Origin: Allorhizocola rhizosphaerae
GTDB taxonomy: Bacteria > Actinomycetota > Actinomycetes > Mycobacteriales > Micromonosporaceae
Assembly (NCBI RefSeq): GCF_003426775.1
Contig: NZ_QJUG01000076.1
Location: forward strand, 1-36,033
Direction of reading: 5' to 3'
Length of the DNA: 36,033 nucleotides
This document shows, one piece after another, positions 19,862-36,033 of the stretch. The translations under genes and the position numbers were made by a program. The notes under the pieces were generated by a model. The model saw nothing but the letters and a program-made list of their open reading frames with translations. It ran no database searches and was not told the origin of the DNA. The stretch's first letter is position 1, and each line of letters opens with the position of its first letter.

Positions 19862-20550
19862 GTGACCCGGGCGTGCAACGGCGGCGCGGCCGAGGCCGAC
19901 ATCAACCCGCGGCACGGCACGTTCACGGGCGCGGAACTCGCCATCACGGGTGACACAAAACCCCTCGCCGTCTCCGTCGGTCTCGCCCTCACCTTCACCT
20001 TTACCCTCACCTTTACTACCCTCACCTTTACTACCCTCACCTTTACTACCCTCACCTTTACTACCCTCACCTTTACTACCCTCACCTTTACTACCCTCAC
20101 CTTCACCCTCACCGCAGCCGGGCAACAACCTGGCCCGGTCGGCCACGGCTTCGTGTTCGTTCACGTCTTCGTGGGAGAGCTGCGCGGCGATCAACAATGG
20201 GGATGAGCCGACGAGCTCCAACTTCGGCTCGCCCAAGGCGGGCAACCGCTGGGGCACGTGGCCCAATCAGGGCGAGCAGTGGTCGGGGTCTACAGCGGTC
20301 TTCGGCCCAGCCGGTGAGCCGGGCGCAGGTGTACTTCTTCGACGACAACCAGGGCATCGACCTGCCCGCGTCGTGGAAACTGCAGGCTTGAAACGGCAGC
20401 GCCTACGTGGACGGAGGCGGCGCGAGCGGCGGATACCCCGGTTGCGGGCGACCAATACAACACCGTCGCGTTCAGCGGCGTGAGCACGACACGCCTGCGG
20501 GTCGTGCTGCAGAGCGCCTCCGGACTCTCCGTTGGTCTGCTTGATCAAGG
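19862..20550 (+). pseudogene. Decayed gene for a secreted glycoside-hydrolase-type protein with C-terminal discoidin-like domain
   Basis: A Pro-Ser linker (SPSPSPLPSPLL repeats) leads into a sugar-binding F5/8-type domain split over three frames: NLARSATASCSFTSSWESC and RWGTWPNQGEQWSGS (to about 20292), AQVYFFDDNQGIDLPASWKL (to about 20388), then NGSAYVD and, after another shift, STTRLRVVLQSASG (to about 20520). A TGA at 20389-20391 stands where the family normally has Trp before NGSAYVD. At least two frameshifts plus this nonsense codon make it non-functional. Upstream, 19862-19950 may be the residue of the preceding domain in yet another frame. The catalytic part is absent from the window. 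Confidence 0.65.
20011..20100. repeat. Six perfect 15-bp tandem repeats
   Basis: CTTTACTACCCTCAC is repeated six times without error, with imperfect copies on both sides (from about 19986 and to about 20112). In the pseudogene frame it encodes Pro-Ser-Pro-Leu-Leu, so it is an expanded linker. Its perfect identity inside a decayed gene suggests recent slippage. Confidence 0.9.
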
Positions 20551-20694
20551 CCTTCGCGTCATAGGCGTCGGCACATGCGAGAGCGGGCTCCCTATCCGGC
20601 GCCCGCCCTTTTCCGTGTGCCGCCGCTTGCCGGGCACGCACACCTTCACACCATCCGGATCAACGGGGCCGCTCTCCACAACATCGGCGATGCC

Positions 20695-20776
20695 GTCGCG
20701 CACGCGGACGCCGCCGCAACATCCGGGATAATGTCGTCGCGCACGCGGACGCCGCCGCAACATCCGGGATAACGTC
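20695..20776. repeat. 41-bp tandem duplication
   Basis: Copies 20695-20735 and 20736-20776 differ at one position. Each contains ATCCGGGAT. A weaker third copy follows at about 20777-20816, where the motif appears in inverse orientation (ATCCCGGAT, 20803). No coding explanation was found. Confidence 0.85.
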
Positions 20777-20847
20777 GCCGGACACGCGAAAAGCGTTGCA
20801 ATATCCCGGATCCTGCACTTCATCGACCAATATCCGGACACCATCCC

Positions 20848-23376: not shown

Positions 23377-23807
23377 GCCCGGCCGGACCTAACAACGGCA
23401 TGACAGCACCTGACGCTGCGCCGCACCCCGCTTCACTCAGGCCCGCGCCGCGGGCGCGATGGGCGAAACCGATTGGGAGACGCATCACCGGATCGGGCGA
23501 CATCGGCCCGGCCGCTCTGAAGGCGGATACACCATGGAGGACACGCTCATGACGTGGCCTTCGGGCTGATCGGCCCGCGCCGCCGTGGTCGGCCGGCGTG
23601 GTCGTGGTCGGCCGGCGTGGTCGTGGTCGGCCGGCGTGGTCGGCCCGCGCCGCCGTGGTCAGCCCGGCGGGATCCGTCCTTTGTGGACCTGCCGCTTGCC
23701 GGGATCGCCGTCCCGCTGGGCATGGGTGTGTGGCGGGCCAACGGCAACCAGGCGGTGTCGGCGCTCGCGCCAGCCCTCGCCGAGCACCGGCTGCGCGGAC
23801 CCGCGAC
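23377..23807. other. Intergenic region without a supportable gene
   Basis: No convincing gene is present. GGAGGA (23536) precedes an ATG at 23550 that opens only a six-codon frame. The frame around 23680-23820 gives a protein-like fragment (LPLAGIAVPLGMGVWRANG), possibly gene debris, but I cannot name it. Repeats at 23571-23659 fill the middle. Confidence 0.5.
23571..23659. repeat. 19-bp tandem repeats inside a 20-bp direct repeat
   Basis: GGCCGGCGTGGTCGTGGTC recurs with a 19-base period starting at 23591, 23610 and 23629. The block is flanked by direct copies of CGGCCCGCGCCGCCGTGGTC (about 23571 and 23640). A 19-base unit rotates through all reading frames, so the repeat is unlikely to be coding. 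Confidence 0.8.
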
Positions 23808-31425: not shown

Positions 31426-34400
31426 TTAAGGGAGTCGTGTCCGGTGCACGCCGCCGTCGATCGTCCCGGCGTAGAGGTAGCCGTCCGGGCCGATGGCGAG
31501 GCGCGTCGTGTCGAGGTTTTGCAGACTGCTGGAGATGTTGTGCCACGTGTGGCCGCCGTCGGCGGAGCGCAGGATGCCCCGCCCGCCCTTGAGGACACCG
31601 TTTTCCCAGTAGCCGGTGGTGGCGGCGTAGAGGGTGGTGCCGTGCTGCACGAGGTCGGAAACCTTGAGCGGCAGGTTGCCGGTGTCGGTATCGCGCACGC
31701 GACCGTCTGCGAGGATGCGGATCGTCTTGCCACCGACGATGAGGCCGCGCGGCGTGTGCAGGACAGACGTGACCGGGCCGTCGGCCAGCTTGGTCTTCGT
31801 GACGCCGTTGTCGTCCGTGCGGTACAGGCCGGAATCGTCGCCCAGCCACCAACGGTCCGGATTGGACGGATCGCCGGCGATCGCCGTGATCGGTGTGTCG
31901 TGGTAGAGGCTCTTCCATGTGGACCCGCCGTTGGTCGTGCTGTAGAGGCCGCTCCCGCCCAGCGACCAGAAGCTGACCGCGATGCGGTTGGGGTCGGCCG
32001 GATGCACCGCGAGGGCGATCGGGACCTCCGCCCACGTGCCCTTCGTCTCCCACGTGGCCCCGCCGTCCGTGCTGCGCTCCACGTTGAACGAGCCGAAGGC
32101 GCTGCGCTGCACGCGCCACGCGACCCCTTGCGAAACGGTGATGTGGCTGACCGTCACGCCGATGTAGCCCTCGCCGCCCGAGGCGCCCCACTCGGGACCG
32201 GCGATCGGCAGGGTCGCGCGGTAGAGCCCCGATGAGGTGCCGGCGAGAAGGGTGTTGCCGCTGAAGGCCAGGGCGTTGATGGAGATGCCTTGAACCCCTA
32301 TTCTCTGGTACCCGCTGCCGTCCGCGCTGCCACGGTAGACTCCCGCGCCTTCGGCGCTCAAGGTGATGCTGCCGTCCGCCCACCGGTCGTAATCGGTGAA
32401 CACGGCCGAGTCGAGCGGCTCTTGCAGTGTGGACCAGGTGCGCCCGTTGTCGCGGCTGACCCGCGAGCCGATGACCGTGCCGATCATGAACAGGTCACTG
32501 CCGGACCGCTTGAGCATGAAACCCCAGACCGGGTGATCGAGCAATGTGGACCAGCTGCGGCCCGCGTCATAGGAGCCGACAACGCCGATTCTCGGGATGA
32601 GCGCGGCTACCACCGTGCCGTTGGCCACGAGGCCGTAGACGAAGCCGTCGCCCGCGTCGTAGACGAGCTCGGCCTCGCCGACGACGCCTCTGCGCACCCA
32701 CACTCCCTTGCTCGTGCTCAGATAGAGGTCGGCGCCGCCCATTGCGGCATACCAGATTTCACCGTCCACTCCGGACGGATAGGCGGTCCACGAGTCGCCC
32801 GCATCCGTGCTTACGGCGATGCCGTCGGCCATGACCGCCACGAGCGTTCGTGTTTGCTCGTCGGCGACCAGTGTGAGGATGAACCCGGCCGGCACGGGCA
32901 GCGCCCGCCACGTCTTGCCCCGGTCGTCGGTGCGCAGCACCTTGCCCAGACCGGTCACGGCATCGTTCACCGCGTACCAGAACCGCTCCGATCGTCGGGC
33001 GTCCACGACCACCGTGCCCAGCTGGATCCCGCCCGCGACGGGAAGCCGGTTGAGCTGGGTCCAGTTGCGGCCCGCGTCGGTGGTCAGCCACGGCCCGGCC
33101 TTGTTGTACTGCGTCATGACGGCCTGTTGCGGCGCGCTCGGTGAGAGGGCCAGATCGCCGCCCTCGCTGAGCGGACCGACCGGCTCCCACCGGATTTTGC
33201 GCGCCTCCTCCGGCGTCACCTCGAATCCGCTGGTGCCCGTGAGCACCTGCCCGCTTGCGGCGGTCGCGCGCACGGACACCTGATAGGCACCCGGCGCATA
33301 GCCCGAAAGCGAAGCCGTGTACCAGTTTCCGTAGGCGTGCGTGGCCGTGACGGTCTTGCCTCGCACGGTCGCCGTCGGTGCCTGCGCGAGCGGCGCGTAG
33401 CTGTAGATGTATGCCGTGGAGGTGCCGTCGCTCGGGTCCGGCGAAGTCTGCACCACCAACGGGCGCACGACCAGCAGATATGGCACGCGAATCGCGGGCC
33501 CACCGAGCAAAGGCGTGACCGTGACGAGACCCTCGATGGTCGTGTCGGCGTGCGGATTGTCGGCCCGGACCGTGACCGTCACGGTCGTGGCCCGCCCGGC
33601 GGGCAGGAGCACCCACTCGCGGCTCACGCGCACGTCCCGGCTTCCCGTGCCCAAGCGGGCCAGGACCGCCCGCGAGCCCGTGTTGCGCACCGTCAACCGG
33701 CGCGAGGCGCCCACGTCGCGTGTGGACAGATCGGCGAGCCCGAACGACAGCACGGGCGGGCTTGCCGTCAGGGTCGCGTTGGCCGCCCCTGCGACGTCAA
33801 GTCGGCCTGCTCCGCGGGAGCCGACCTCCGTACCGGATAACGATTTTGAAGAATTCACCAACCTGGAGTGAATCTCGGCGGGTGACTGTCCGGGGTTCAA
33901 TTGGCGCAACAGTGCCGCGGCCCCGGCGACGTGCGGTGCGGCCATGGAGGTGCCGGACAGGCGGTACTGCCCCGGCTCGAACAGCGCCGTCGGGATGGTC
34001 GAGCGGATTTCGACGCCCGGCGCGACCAGGTCGGGCTTGAGCCCGAAGGAAGGCGACGGCCCGCGCGACGAGAACGGGGCGATCTGGTCGGTCACGTCCT
34101 CGCCCTTGATGGTGACCCGCACCGGCCCGGCCGCCAGCAGCCGTGTCATCTCGTCATACTGCGTCTGGTCCATGCCCAGGACCACGAGGCGGTCCATCAC
34201 CAGCAGATCGCCGGACGCCTTCACGCGCACGCCGGCATCGGCCTTGATGGACGGTCCATTTTGGACCGTCCCGGGGAAGCCGCCAAGCAACGCGATCGCG
34301 CCACGGGTTTCGGCCTCGCGTGCCAGCTCGATGTCCCACGACGTCAGATCCTGTTTGACCCGTGGCACGAACGTCTCGAATCGCACGATCTTGCCCCGCA

Positions 34401-35337
34401 CGTCGGGCGCGGTCGCCCAGTCGGGCACGTGCACGACCTCGGCCGTCACGGGGGAGCCGGGCGGGTTGGCGGAATGCGCGCCACGCCAGGTTTGCAGCAG
34501 GCCGTTGCCCAGATAGGCGCTCGGCATGCGCAGGTTGCTCGTCGACGCGCCCACGGCGATGACGCTGTCGGCGACCGCGGGGGAGCTGACGGAGTCGCGA
34601 TAGGGGCCCGCGTTTCCGGCCGCCGCGACCACCACCACGCCTCGCTGCGAAGCCGCCTTGGCGGCCAGGCTCATCGGGTCGGACCCGTCGCCGGGCCCGC
34701 CCAAACTGAGGTTGATGACATCGGCCTGACCGGACGCCGCCGCCTCGATGGCCGCGACGATGTCGGACGTATAACCGGAGCCTCTGTCGTTGAGCACCTT
34801 GTAGGCCACGATGGTCGCCTCGGGCGCGACACCTGTGACACCGCCTGGCGCGGCGGCCATGCCTGCGATGATGCCTGCGACGTGCGTGCCGTGCCCGTGG
34901 TCGTCCATGGGGTCGGCGTCGCCGTTGGCGAAGTCGTATCCCTTGACGACACGGCCGGCCAGATCAGGGTGCGTGTAGTCCACGCCGGTGTCGATGACCG
35001 CGACGCGCACGCCGCGGCCCGTGGCATTGTGCTTCTCGCGTACCTCGGTGGCGCCGATGAGGCTCGTGCTCACGTCGACGTGCGCCTTGACGGGTGCGTC
35101 GGGCCACACGGCGCGCACGCCCTTCAGCTGCTTTATCTCGCTGTCGGAGGCCGTCATCGCCACACCGTTGATGAGGCCCAAACGCTTGCCCGCCATGGCG
35201 GTCGTCACAGCGTTGTCCTCGAACAGCACGATCACTCGCCGCTGCGGACCGGGCGGCGCGGCCACGCTGGTGTCGCTGATGAGTCCGGCCGCGCCCAGGA
35301 CCACCGTGACGCAGGCGGCCAGAGATCTCTTGTTCAT
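31426..35337 (-). CDS. Secreted S8 subtilisin-like serine peptidase with beta-propeller tail
   Basis: This 1303-residue preproprotein has a signal peptide (SLAACVTVVLGAAGLISDTS). A short I9-like prodomain (RRVIVLFEDNAVTTAM) precedes the catalytic domain with Asp116 (VAVIDTGVD), His149 (DDHGHGTHVAG), oxyanion-type Asn in AAAGNAGP and Ser464 (SGTSMAAPHVAG). A PA-like insert lies between His and Ser (about 280-400). Fn3/Ig-like beta domains follow (about 530-720). From about 730 to the end come Asp-box/BNR-type repeats (STDAGDSWTAY, STDGGATWE, STTNGGSTWKSL, RSADGGHTWHNIS), predicting a beta-propeller that could bind substrate or polysaccharide. All triad residues are intact. It diverges from a LuxR-type regulator across a repeat-filled spacer. 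Confidence 0.94.
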   Translation of the reverse strand: MNKRSLAACVTVVLGAAGLISDTSVAAPPGPQRRVIVLFEDNAVTTAMAGKRLGLINGVAMTASDSEIKQLKGVRAVWPDAPVKAHVDVSTSLIGATEVREKHNATGRGVRVAVIDTGVDYTHPDLAGRVVKGYDFANGDADPMDDHGHGTHVAGIIAGMAAAPGGVTGVAPEATIVAYKVLNDRGSGYTSDIVAAIEAAASGQADVINLSLGGPGDGSDPMSLAAKAASQRGVVVVAAAGNAGPYRDSVSSPAVADSVIAVGASTSNLRMPSAYLGNGLLQTWRGAHSANPPGSPVTAEVVHVPDWATAPDVRGKIVRFETFVPRVKQDLTSWDIELAREAETRGAIALLGGFPGTVQNGPSIKADAGVRVKASGDLLVMDRLVVLGMDQTQYDEMTRLLAAGPVRVTIKGEDVTDQIAPFSSRGPSPSFGLKPDLVAPGVEIRSTIPTALFEPGQYRLSGTSMAAPHVAGAAALLRQLNPGQSPAEIHSRLVNSSKSLSGTEVGSRGAGRLDVAGAANATLTASPPVLSFGLADLSTRDVGASRRLTVRNTGSRAVLARLGTGSRDVRVSREWVLLPAGRATTVTVTVRADNPHADTTIEGLVTVTPLLGGPAIRVPYLLVVRPLVVQTSPDPSDGTSTAYIYSYAPLAQAPTATVRGKTVTATHAYGNWYTASLSGYAPGAYQVSVRATAASGQVLTGTSGFEVTPEEARKIRWEPVGPLSEGGDLALSPSAPQQAVMTQYNKAGPWLTTDAGRNWTQLNRLPVAGGIQLGTVVVDARRSERFWYAVNDAVTGLGKVLRTDDRGKTWRALPVPAGFILTLVADEQTRTLVAVMADGIAVSTDAGDSWTAYPSGVDGEIWYAAMGGADLYLSTSKGVWVRRGVVGEAELVYDAGDGFVYGLVANGTVVAALIPRIGVVGSYDAGRSWSTLLDHPVWGFMLKRSGSDLFMIGTVIGSRVSRDNGRTWSTLQEPLDSAVFTDYDRWADGSITLSAEGAGVYRGSADGSGYQRIGVQGISINALAFSGNTLLAGTSSGLYRATLPIAGPEWGASGGEGYIGVTVSHITVSQGVAWRVQRSAFGSFNVERSTDGGATWETKGTWAEVPIALAVHPADPNRIAVSFWSLGGSGLYSTTNGGSTWKSLYHDTPITAIAGDPSNPDRWWLGDDSGLYRTDDNGVTKTKLADGPVTSVLHTPRGLIVGGKTIRILADGRVRDTDTGNLPLKVSDLVQHGTTLYAATTGYWENGVLKGGRGILRSADGGHTWHNISSSLQNLDTTRLAIGPDGYLYAGTIDGGVHRTRLP

Positions 35338-35420
35338 GTTGTCCGTCCTAGTCGGGCCAGGATGTAAGGAGCAATGCCCGGGTCTGGCCTATTGCTGCCC
35401 CTGTCATCTTTGGGCCATGA

Positions 35421-35768
35421 TTTCCGCAGCGGTCGGGCCCGGATCGCTACGCGCCCGGCCCCAACCGCGCAAGAGCACGGCTTCGCCTGAACGGAGTAAG
35501 ACCTTGATTTCGGCAGCGGTCGGGCCCGGATCGCTGCGCGCCCGGCCCCAACCGCGCAAGAGCACGGCTTCGCCTGAACGGAGTAAGACCTTGATTTCGG
35601 CAGCGGTCGGGCCCGGATCGCTACGCGCCCGGCCCCAACCGCGCAAGAGCACGGCTTCGCCTGAACGGAGTAAGACCTTGATTTCGGCAGCGGTCGGGCC
35701 CGGATCGCTACGCGCCCGGCCCCGACCGCGCAAGAGCACGGCTTCGCCTGAACGGAGTAAAACCCCTC
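35421..35768. repeat. Four tandem 87-bp repeats between divergent genes
   Basis: The copies start at 35421, 35508, 35595 and 35682 and are almost identical. Each contains a GC-rich stem-loop (GCGGTCGGGCCCGG pairing with CCGGCCCCAACCGC around an 11-base loop) and the sequence CGGAGTAA. In copy 4 the arm is CCGGCCCCGACCGC, which repairs a mismatch, so this copy may be the ancestral one. Copy 4 ends exactly where the GTG start of the downstream gene begins. The unit is 29 codons long and open in several frames, but no real protein is recognised. The rest of the spacer (35338-35420) contains the leader of the subtilase gene. Confidence 0.92.
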
Positions 35769-36033
35769 GTGACCTCGGAACTGACCGCTGCCGGCGTGGA
35801 CCCCTTTGATGAGGAGGTGTACCGGGCCATCCTCGTGCGCCCTTCGGCCGCGCCCGGCGAGCTCGCCGCCGACCTCGGCCACAACCCGGAGCGCATCTCC
35901 CGCGCACTGGACCGGCTGCGCGACCACGGCCTGGTCGGCCGGCTGTCCGGGGCGCGCAGGCGATATGCCGCAATCGAGCCGCAGGCCGCGATCGGTGCGC
36001 TGGTGCGCGCCCGCGCCGCCGAGCTCGACCGGG
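35769..36033 (+). CDS. TrmB/LuxR-type transcriptional regulator (3' partial)
   Basis: The first 88 codons are inside the window. The sequence from GTG 35769 shows an N-terminal winged helix-turn-helix: VDPFDEEVYRAILVRPSAAP, GELAADLGHNPERISRALDR, LRDHGLVGRL, then RRYAAIEPQAAIGALV. This arrangement begins TrmB-like regulators and the actinobacterial family that adds a long helical linker and a C-terminal LuxR HTH; the C-terminal half is off the edge. The only plausible Shine-Dalgarno (GGAG, 11 bases upstream) lies inside the last 87-bp repeat. It may control the divergent subtilase gene. Confidence 0.75.
   Translation, partial: MTSELTAAGVDPFDEEVYRAILVRPSAAPGELAADLGHNPERISRALDRLRDHGLVGRLSGARRRYAAIEPQAAIGALVRARAAELDR

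Follow-up and report, generated by a model that had tools for sequence, protein, structure and literature searches.

The MIRUs of Mycobacterium tuberculosis are intergenic units of 40–100 bp at 41 chromosomal places, in tandem at many of them, and are described as separating pairs of genes which, in other mycobacteria, almost adjoin (PMC2734929). In the same account, the rnc-fpg1 repeats of M. tuberculosis end at the fpg1 start codon, mycobacteria that do not belong to the complex have only a few bases in the corresponding gap, and fpg1 transcript levels are lower with a shorter MIRU-VNTR repeat length (PMC2734929). MIRUs also lie between senX3 and regX3 and are reported to be able to drive regX3 expression (PMC4213456). 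The BOX, RUP and SPRITE elements of Streptococcus pneumoniae are described as small interspersed repeats with predicted stem-loops and a modular, tandem boxB; they are thought to affect co-transcribed genes and are judged parasitic, and the terminal inverted repeats of BOX and RUP connect these two with insertion sequences resident in the genome (PMC3049150). REP, BIME and REPIN sequences are reported as dispersed, intergenic and often clustered palindromes of 20–40 bp, mostly with a GTAG or CGTC tag (PMC3733652). In Beggiatoaceae, TAACTGA direct repeats stand in tandem just upstream of many starts, and a role in translation has been proposed for them (PMC4679880).

The locus described here is an array of four hairpin-bearing copies directly before a regulator gene of Allorhizocola rhizosphaerae. 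The window, by which we mean the whole stretch of 36,033 nucleotides that was analysed, is one complete contig (C468) of an 8.81-Mb draft assembly in 493 contigs, and the array lies about 270 bp from the contig end. We consider it probable, at roughly 75%, that this array arose by tandem amplification, on the spot, of a dispersed MIRU- or BOX-like repeat of about 85 bp that is specific to the lineage and which would serve as a portable spacer and ribosome-binding site.

Results

The array and its place in the window

The features on which the analysis depends are as follows.

31426–35337, reverse strand: divergent S8 subtilase gene with Sortilin-Vps10/BNR repeats (PF00082, 2.8e-63)
35392–35397, forward strand: TTGCTG, conserved −35-like hexamer of the putative native regulator promoter, from alignment with relatives
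35416–35421, forward strand: CATGAT, −10-like hexamer at which the array begins, likewise a candidate from alignment with relatives
35418–35764, forward strand: tandem array with a period of 87 bp, made up of four copies of the dispersed hairpin element (Tandem Repeats Finder, BLAST)
35418–35504, forward strand: copy 1, model core 35421–35501 (BLAST and covariance model, as for copies 2 to 4)
35505–35591, forward strand: copy 2, model core 35508–35588
35592–35678, forward strand: copy 3, model core 35595–35675
35679–35764, forward strand: copy 4, adjoining the regulator start, model core 35682–35762
35687–35731, forward strand: main covarying hairpin of copy 4, at the same place in each copy, 87 bp apart (folding, covariation)
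35740–35748, forward strand: near-invariant second mini-hairpin GGC-TTC-GCC within the conserved core CACGGCTTCGCCTGAA, copy 4 (sequence, alignment)
35754–35757, forward strand: candidate Shine-Dalgarno sequence GGAG in copy 4, 11 nt upstream of the GTG (sequence, near-start comparison)
35769–36033, forward strand: TrmB-like winged-helix regulator gene with a GTG start, truncated by the contig end (PF01978, 1.2e-7)

Tandem Repeats Finder reports the array at 35418–35764 with a period of 87, 4.0 copies, 98% matches and a score of 666, and BLAST with one unit as the query recovers all four copies at 98–100% identity. The hairpin and the GGAG are present in each copy, and the first-pass annotation, which had described four such 87-bp repeats in the divergent spacer, was right on this point. 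Its statement that they end exactly at a start codon holds insofar as the array adjoins the start; the repeat ends at 35764 and the GTG begins at 35769, which leaves a gap of 4 nt. The four copies differ from one another at several bases and thus are not one copy duplicated by the assembler, which disposes of the suspicion that the copy number is an artefact of this kind. Elsewhere in the window, Tandem Repeats Finder also reports a 15-bp unit, TACCCTCACCTTTAC, in 6.8 perfect copies (20002–20103) and short G+C-rich tandem repeats of 13–41 bp (23570–23669 and 20679–20788).

A dispersed family that amplifies in place

With one unit as the BLAST query, 76 places match in the own genome, and with the consensus 77; a covariance model (R1), built from 54 distinct copies, gives at least 148 genome matches at E ≤ 0.1, and 108 of the matches listed fall below 1e-6 by a count by eye. 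This genome search for the 87-bp unit had been proposed as a check on the array, and a dispersed repeat, the result named in advance as adverse, is largely what it returned. The view of the array as an amplified native 5' leader is not supported, given this dispersal and the 15 array-free related loci described below.

In 79 fetched stretches, which mostly omit the sites of weaker model matches, 120 matches at E ≤ 1e-4 form 85 arrays, namely 55 single, 26 double and 3 triple ones and the one of four in the window. Five other arrays are apparently split across pairs of contig ends with matching copies (C155/C320, C232/C114, C237/C218, C352/C308 and C247/C263), so that this array count is slightly high and draft copy numbers may be undercounted. 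A home-made gene caller places seven of the 85 arrays inside a predicted gene, and the family is mostly intergenic. The flanking genes elsewhere are unrelated and of mixed orientation: among 64 arrays, both neighbours run in the sense of the element at 26 and both against it at 15, while 13 pairs are divergent and 10 convergent. Where a co-oriented gene lies upstream, the element begins within 5 nt of its stop codon in 18 of 40 cases. At L151 (2099–2179), the frame of the upstream gene enters the element for about 50 nt and stops there, the element encoding a new C-terminal tail; six other arrays overlap the upstream gene by 16–80 nt according to the gene calls.

Copies within an array share on average 93% identity (22 pairs; lowest 69%, in L042), and copies from different arrays 77% (1409 pairs; highest 96%). 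Repeat boundaries vary among arrays and fall inside the element in L029 and L030, as slippage or recombination would yield, and copies in L018, L023, L028 and L041 have lost most of the hairpin. Arrays thus probably grow in place. Since about a third of the fetched sites (30 of 85 arrays) hold two to four copies beside unrelated genes, amplification is a property of the element rather than of the regulator gene.

Anatomy of the element and constraint on its stem

The main hairpin has a near-invariant foot, in which GC-A-GCGG pairs with CCGC-GC around an unpaired A, a variable complementary stem, another unpaired A under the apex, and the apex CGC-TNC-GCG. The N of this apex is free (14 inferred changes in a tree-based count, with at most one at neighbouring positions). 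The core CACGGCTTCGCCTGAA is exact in 57 of the 71 aligned copies from the first loci and in 23 of the 49 from later loci, cut-off copies being counted, and the 3' tails of 76 arrays include the types CGGAG (25), CAGAG (13) and GAAAC (12). Loops of the form GNA make very stable DNA mini-hairpins, and the loops of both the apex and the second hairpin read GNA on the minus strand. Three divergent copies (L164, 2324–2403; L168, 1674–1754; L180, 2400–2479) have the apex loop in the opposite sense, as GGA, GAG and GAA on the plus strand of the element, which looks like an inversion of the hairpin top.

The long stem changes in sequence yet keeps its pairing. In the alignment of 54 distinct copies (A1), 89.4% of the pair cells are standard, 12 pairs show double-sided change, and 93 cells are double-changed against 27.6 after shuffling; when the pairing is slid, paired cells drop to 30–42%. 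Because shuffles ignore relatedness, stem changes were also placed on a tree, where 24 branch events change both sides with Watson-Crick pairing kept, against an expected 2.3 ± 1.4 and a maximum of 7 in 300 simulations. Over 120 copies, the covariation score is 0.264 compared to 0.108 for shuffled data. In 49 copies outside the model-building set, 90% of cells are paired versus 32–43% when slid, in an alignment that, having been fitted to the model, is biased in its favour. The evidence for the stem is this covariation among copies, as the folding of a single sequence is just mildly above chance (copy 4, −39.5 kcal/mol, z −1.87 vs shuffles). Local templated correction of palindromes could add to the double-sided changes; given the conserved unpaired A and the common mismatches, such correction is unlikely to be the sole cause.

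The pairing shows no strand preference. Over all loci, 20 have more G.T, 26 more A.C and 33 equal numbers of both wobble pairs (p=0.46). An early count of 22 changes from Watson-Crick pairs making A.C versus 11 making G.U had hinted at action on the minus strand, and four copies of the element folded as DNA were at least as stable on the minus strand as on the plus strand; the wobble excess vanished over all loci and the idea was dropped. In Rfam, positions 34000–36033 of the window and seven other loci gave only sub-threshold matches. Two of these, on the minus strand of the window, are to Hammerhead_II (18.6 and 15.6 bits; gathering threshold 37), and a hammerhead ribozyme was rejected, as the CUGANGA core is missing from the alignment and the match does not recur in the seven other loci.

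An array-free site in the subtilase-regulator spacer of relatives

The first 400 residues of the subtilase find matches in 18 of 121 family genomes, the own genome included, and the regulator is matched on the fetched stretch in 16 of the 17 others (absent from L128), the two genes being adjacent and divergent in these relatives. The GTG start of the regulator is supported by its homologues, most of which match it from its first residue on, with an ATG or GTG at that position. In 15 of the 16 related loci, the same divergent spacer contains no array and a −10-like hexamer (CAAGAT, CAGGAT, CACGAT or CACAAT) stands 5–7 nt before the in-frame ATG or GTG; the exception, L132, has no such hexamer in its spacer. 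The −35-like hexamer lies 18 nt upstream as TTGCTG or TTGCGG in 14 of the 15, and 17 nt upstream as TTGTGC in L133. At two of these 15 loci, a TTG in frame is also found 1 nt past the −10-like hexamer. A model scan of fifty related stretches returned four weak matches (best 28.7 bits), none of them in the subtilase-regulator spacer.

The window keeps TTGCTG, the 18-nt spacing and CATGAT, and the array follows immediately, so that the distance from hexamer to GTG is 347 nt. By position, the array thus separates the start codon of the regulator from the conserved, promoter-like motif upstream of it. As a transcription start about 7 nt past the −10 would land on the start codon in the relatives, the native regulator mRNA is probably leaderless; the array, being downstream of the conserved −10-like hexamer, is probably transcribed as a leader. 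Around the −35-like hexamer, a TGGCCC...GGGCCA inverted repeat is conserved in the spacer (35380–35421) and in relatives L117–L127, and it is likely to be an operator of the regulator.

Two further sites without the element in relatives

The downstream protein of a pair of transporter permeases (L043) occurs in 33 of 41 genomes, and 15 stretches were fetched, one of them from the own genome. The distance from the upstream stop to the residue matching the second GTG is 2–34 nt in all 14 relatives, and in nine it is 2 nt, meaning that stop and start codons overlap. In the own genome the distance is 87 nt and is filled by the element, whose GGAG stands 6 nt upstream of the GTG corresponding to the start in relatives. 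For pyrG-NUDIX (L031), 30 stretches were fetched, one of them own, and 25 of the 29 relatives were measurable, the other four having no pyrG upstream on the stretch. Here the gap is −1 to 33 nt in 23 of the 25 and 93 nt in the own genome, where a GGAG stands 8 nt before a TTG. The two exceptions, L088 (84 nt, with another hairpin) and L096 (120 nt), suggest that this junction may accept insertions repeatedly. Sequence comparison with relatives thus shows element-free sites at three loci.

The GGAG of the last copy as a candidate ribosome-binding site

Downstream starts were compared in 76 arrays, after nine of the 85 without a predicted downstream gene on the stretch had been dropped and the seven in-gene arrays assigned to the class not near a start. 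In eight of the 76, the home-made caller places a start in the same orientation 2–10 nt past the model end.

The window: TrmB-like regulator
L031: NUDIX
L042: PfkB kinase, after a PF04227 gene
L043: permease
L151: AlkZ-like
L158: uracil-DNA glycosylase superfamily, after tetrahydrofolate dehydrogenase
L164: Mur-ligase-type protein, folC-like by eye, after valyl-tRNA synthetase
L185: ABC ATPase

All eight carry GGAG, compared to 19 of the 68 others (Fisher p=1.2e-4); the cut-off for near (<20 nt) was chosen after the distances had been seen and falls in a clean gap from 10 to 26 nt, the next array being at 26 nt. The spacing from GGAG to start is 6–9 nt in seven near-start arrays and reaches its maximum, 11 nt, in the window. 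The retention of GGAG and the element starts at upstream stops agree with insertions being tolerated precisely between genes and GGAG being preserved where it is required. In line with the earlier suggestion that the last copy supplies leader and Shine-Dalgarno, this copy sits in leader position with its GGAG before the GTG, and it appears to give the regulator gene a new ribosome-binding site, a predicted function. Retention of copies between touching genes was probably helped by their capacity, as judged from their sequence, to restart translation. Selection of the hairpins as attenuators at the regulator is unsupported, the neighbours elsewhere being unrelated genes in mixed orientation.

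Distribution in other genomes

A complete copy was not found in any other genome searched. At E ≤ 0.001 the model matched five of 300 family genomes, the own genome and four with one match each, and at E ≤ 1e-4 it matched only the own genome among 397 genomes of the order; both searches used stricter filters, with which weak matches are lost. BLAST over 41 genomes returned the own genome and a 24-nt stretch in G019 only, the conserved 21-mer had no match in genome_contigs in a scan that possibly excluded the own genome, and the plasmid and phage collections gave no match to the element. The genus is represented by this one genome. Several candidates were rejected: three of the four other family matches, weak ones in G132, G172 and G305, read as ordinary GC-rich hairpins without foot or second core, a 28.7-bit match at L144 has no core, and around nine 16-mer matches in viral contigs the rest of the element is absent. 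The fourth family match (L068, in G057; 40.6 bits, E 1.3e-5, the next best in that genome being E 0.03) is a single, intergenic-looking hairpin in another genus at L068:1501–1572, which shares the bulged-A foot and the AACGCTTCGCG apex and has no second core. It is possibly a distant relative of the element or a convergent structure, and with foot and apex shared, the hairpin half may also exist outside this genome. The open-licence literature searched yielded no description of the element.

Means of spread

A PF01797 search of the own genome (G000) for a Y1 transposase gave no match, the same search being positive in 5 of 14 control genomes, and mobilisation of the RAYT/IS200 type was rejected on this ground. 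The 71 proteins that flank the first array set fall into 148 Pfam families, and no transposase is among the 25 commonest of these. In a comparison of 30 arrays for target-site duplication, no offset or length had more than four matching flank pairs, and the best excess was 3 three-base matches versus 0.28. No terminal inverted repeats were seen by inspection, the element ending in TTTTCC... and ...GAGTTAAACC. One contig of the genome (C474; L083–L085) carries two reverse-transcriptase genes; a link to these was considered and rejected, C474 having no element match among the matches listed. As neither a target duplication nor a candidate mobiliser was found, the term insertion is used here on the basis of comparison with relatives of other genera only.

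Discussion

Our preferred reading, local amplification of a dispersed repeat, suggests the following course. The element would first have arrived in the regulator spacer as a single insertion and then been duplicated in place through replication slippage or recombination. A probably leaderless regulator mRNA would thereby have acquired a leader of about 340 nt with four hairpins, the last GGAG of which may serve as the ribosome-binding site. Elsewhere, as at the pyrG-NUDIX and permease junctions, it lies between genes that in most relatives overlap or are separated by very few bases, with GGAG 6–9 nt before the next start, and may act there in the same way.

The strongest competitor, to which we give slightly less than even weight, is a DNA-level parasite, i.e., a non-autonomous REP- or MITE-like hairpin whose single-stranded or cruciform DNA is read by a transposase or recombinase and whose effects on genes are incidental. 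Dispersal between genes in both orientations fits such a parasite, and so do the balanced wobble pairs, as expected without selection on one RNA strand, and the two GNA loops on the minus strand with their stability as DNA. However, the marks of such a parasite are missing (Y1 transposase, target duplication, terminal inverted repeats, or any transposase among the 25 listed flank families), and incidental effects alone do not account for the GGAG at all eight near-start sites. A bolder combination, which we regard as unlikely on balance and offer tentatively, is a mobile double-hairpin family that would spread without a recognisable transposase, be selected in a folded, probably single-stranded DNA form, and act as a portable translation-start module with copy number as its dial. 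If true, double-hairpin insertions, placed either in the gap from a stop codon to the next start or between a leaderless promoter and its start codon, would rewire genes from leaderless or coupled translation to Shine-Dalgarno-led translation.

Somewhat less likely still is a selected contingency or VNTR switch, in which slippage alters copy number and thereby tunes expression of the regulator, and perhaps of the subtilase. The near-perfect 87-bp copies in leader position fit such a switch, and the MIRU-VNTR at the start of fpg1, where the transcript falls with shorter repeats (PMC2734929), offers a precedent; yet the family is amplified at about a third of the sites fetched, beside unrelated genes, which makes amplification a property of the element and not of this gene. 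We consider a structured non-coding RNA or ribozyme family improbable, even with strong covariation, a near-invariant core, the two sub-threshold Hammerhead_II matches and an early change count that favoured one strand, since the hammerhead match has no CUGANGA core and does not recur, the element stands in mixed orientation to genes, and the strand preference is absent over all loci. That the array encodes a repeated peptide (87 bp = 29 codons) is scarcely credible, for although open frames of 189–273 aa cross it on both strands, the periods of other arrays range between 54 and 119 bp, multiples of 3 make up 17 of 35 (three from the window), and indels and stem covariation ignore the frame.

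The amplified dispersed repeat that we favour is of interest in several respects. It belongs to a family of hairpin repeats in which compensatory evolution is clear, and in the searches made complete copies of this family came from a single genome. It offers a comparative case in which a repeat splits a promoter from its start codon and appears to swap leaderless initiation for a leader with a Shine-Dalgarno sequence. That GGAG is retained wherever a start codon lies shortly downstream indicates, in quantitative terms, that interspersed repeats may be used as ribosome-binding sites, and an old idea on MIRU-like repeats becomes testable with simple reporters.

Among described systems, the element probably works most like the MIRUs. 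Both consist of tandem units at tens of intergenic places, the element with 120 copies in 85 arrays, 30 of them with at least two. In contrast to MIRUs, the element has a strong covarying hairpin, a near-invariant second mini-hairpin and more copies, and MIRUs are not known to have such a hairpin. No sequence relationship showed up in the searches made, in which the 21-mer of the element has no match in genome_contigs and the model none in 396 other genomes of the order (E ≤ 1e-4). With BOX it shares modular tandem hairpins, whereas the MITE-type BOX and RUP differ from it in that the element has neither terminal inverted repeats nor target-site duplication. Like the REP sequences mobilised with RAYT, it is a dispersed imperfect palindrome outside genes; unlike them, it is about 85 bp long with two hairpins, is arranged head to tail in tandem, and resides in a genome without a Y1 transposase, and its foot is flanked by TTTCC and AAGAGCACGG rather than by a GTAG or CGTC tag. 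The TAACTGA repeats are seven-base units, compared to a hairpin element of about 85 bp. We place the element among the short interspersed repeats of intergenic regions, within which its probable use as an imported ribosome-binding site is unusually clear.
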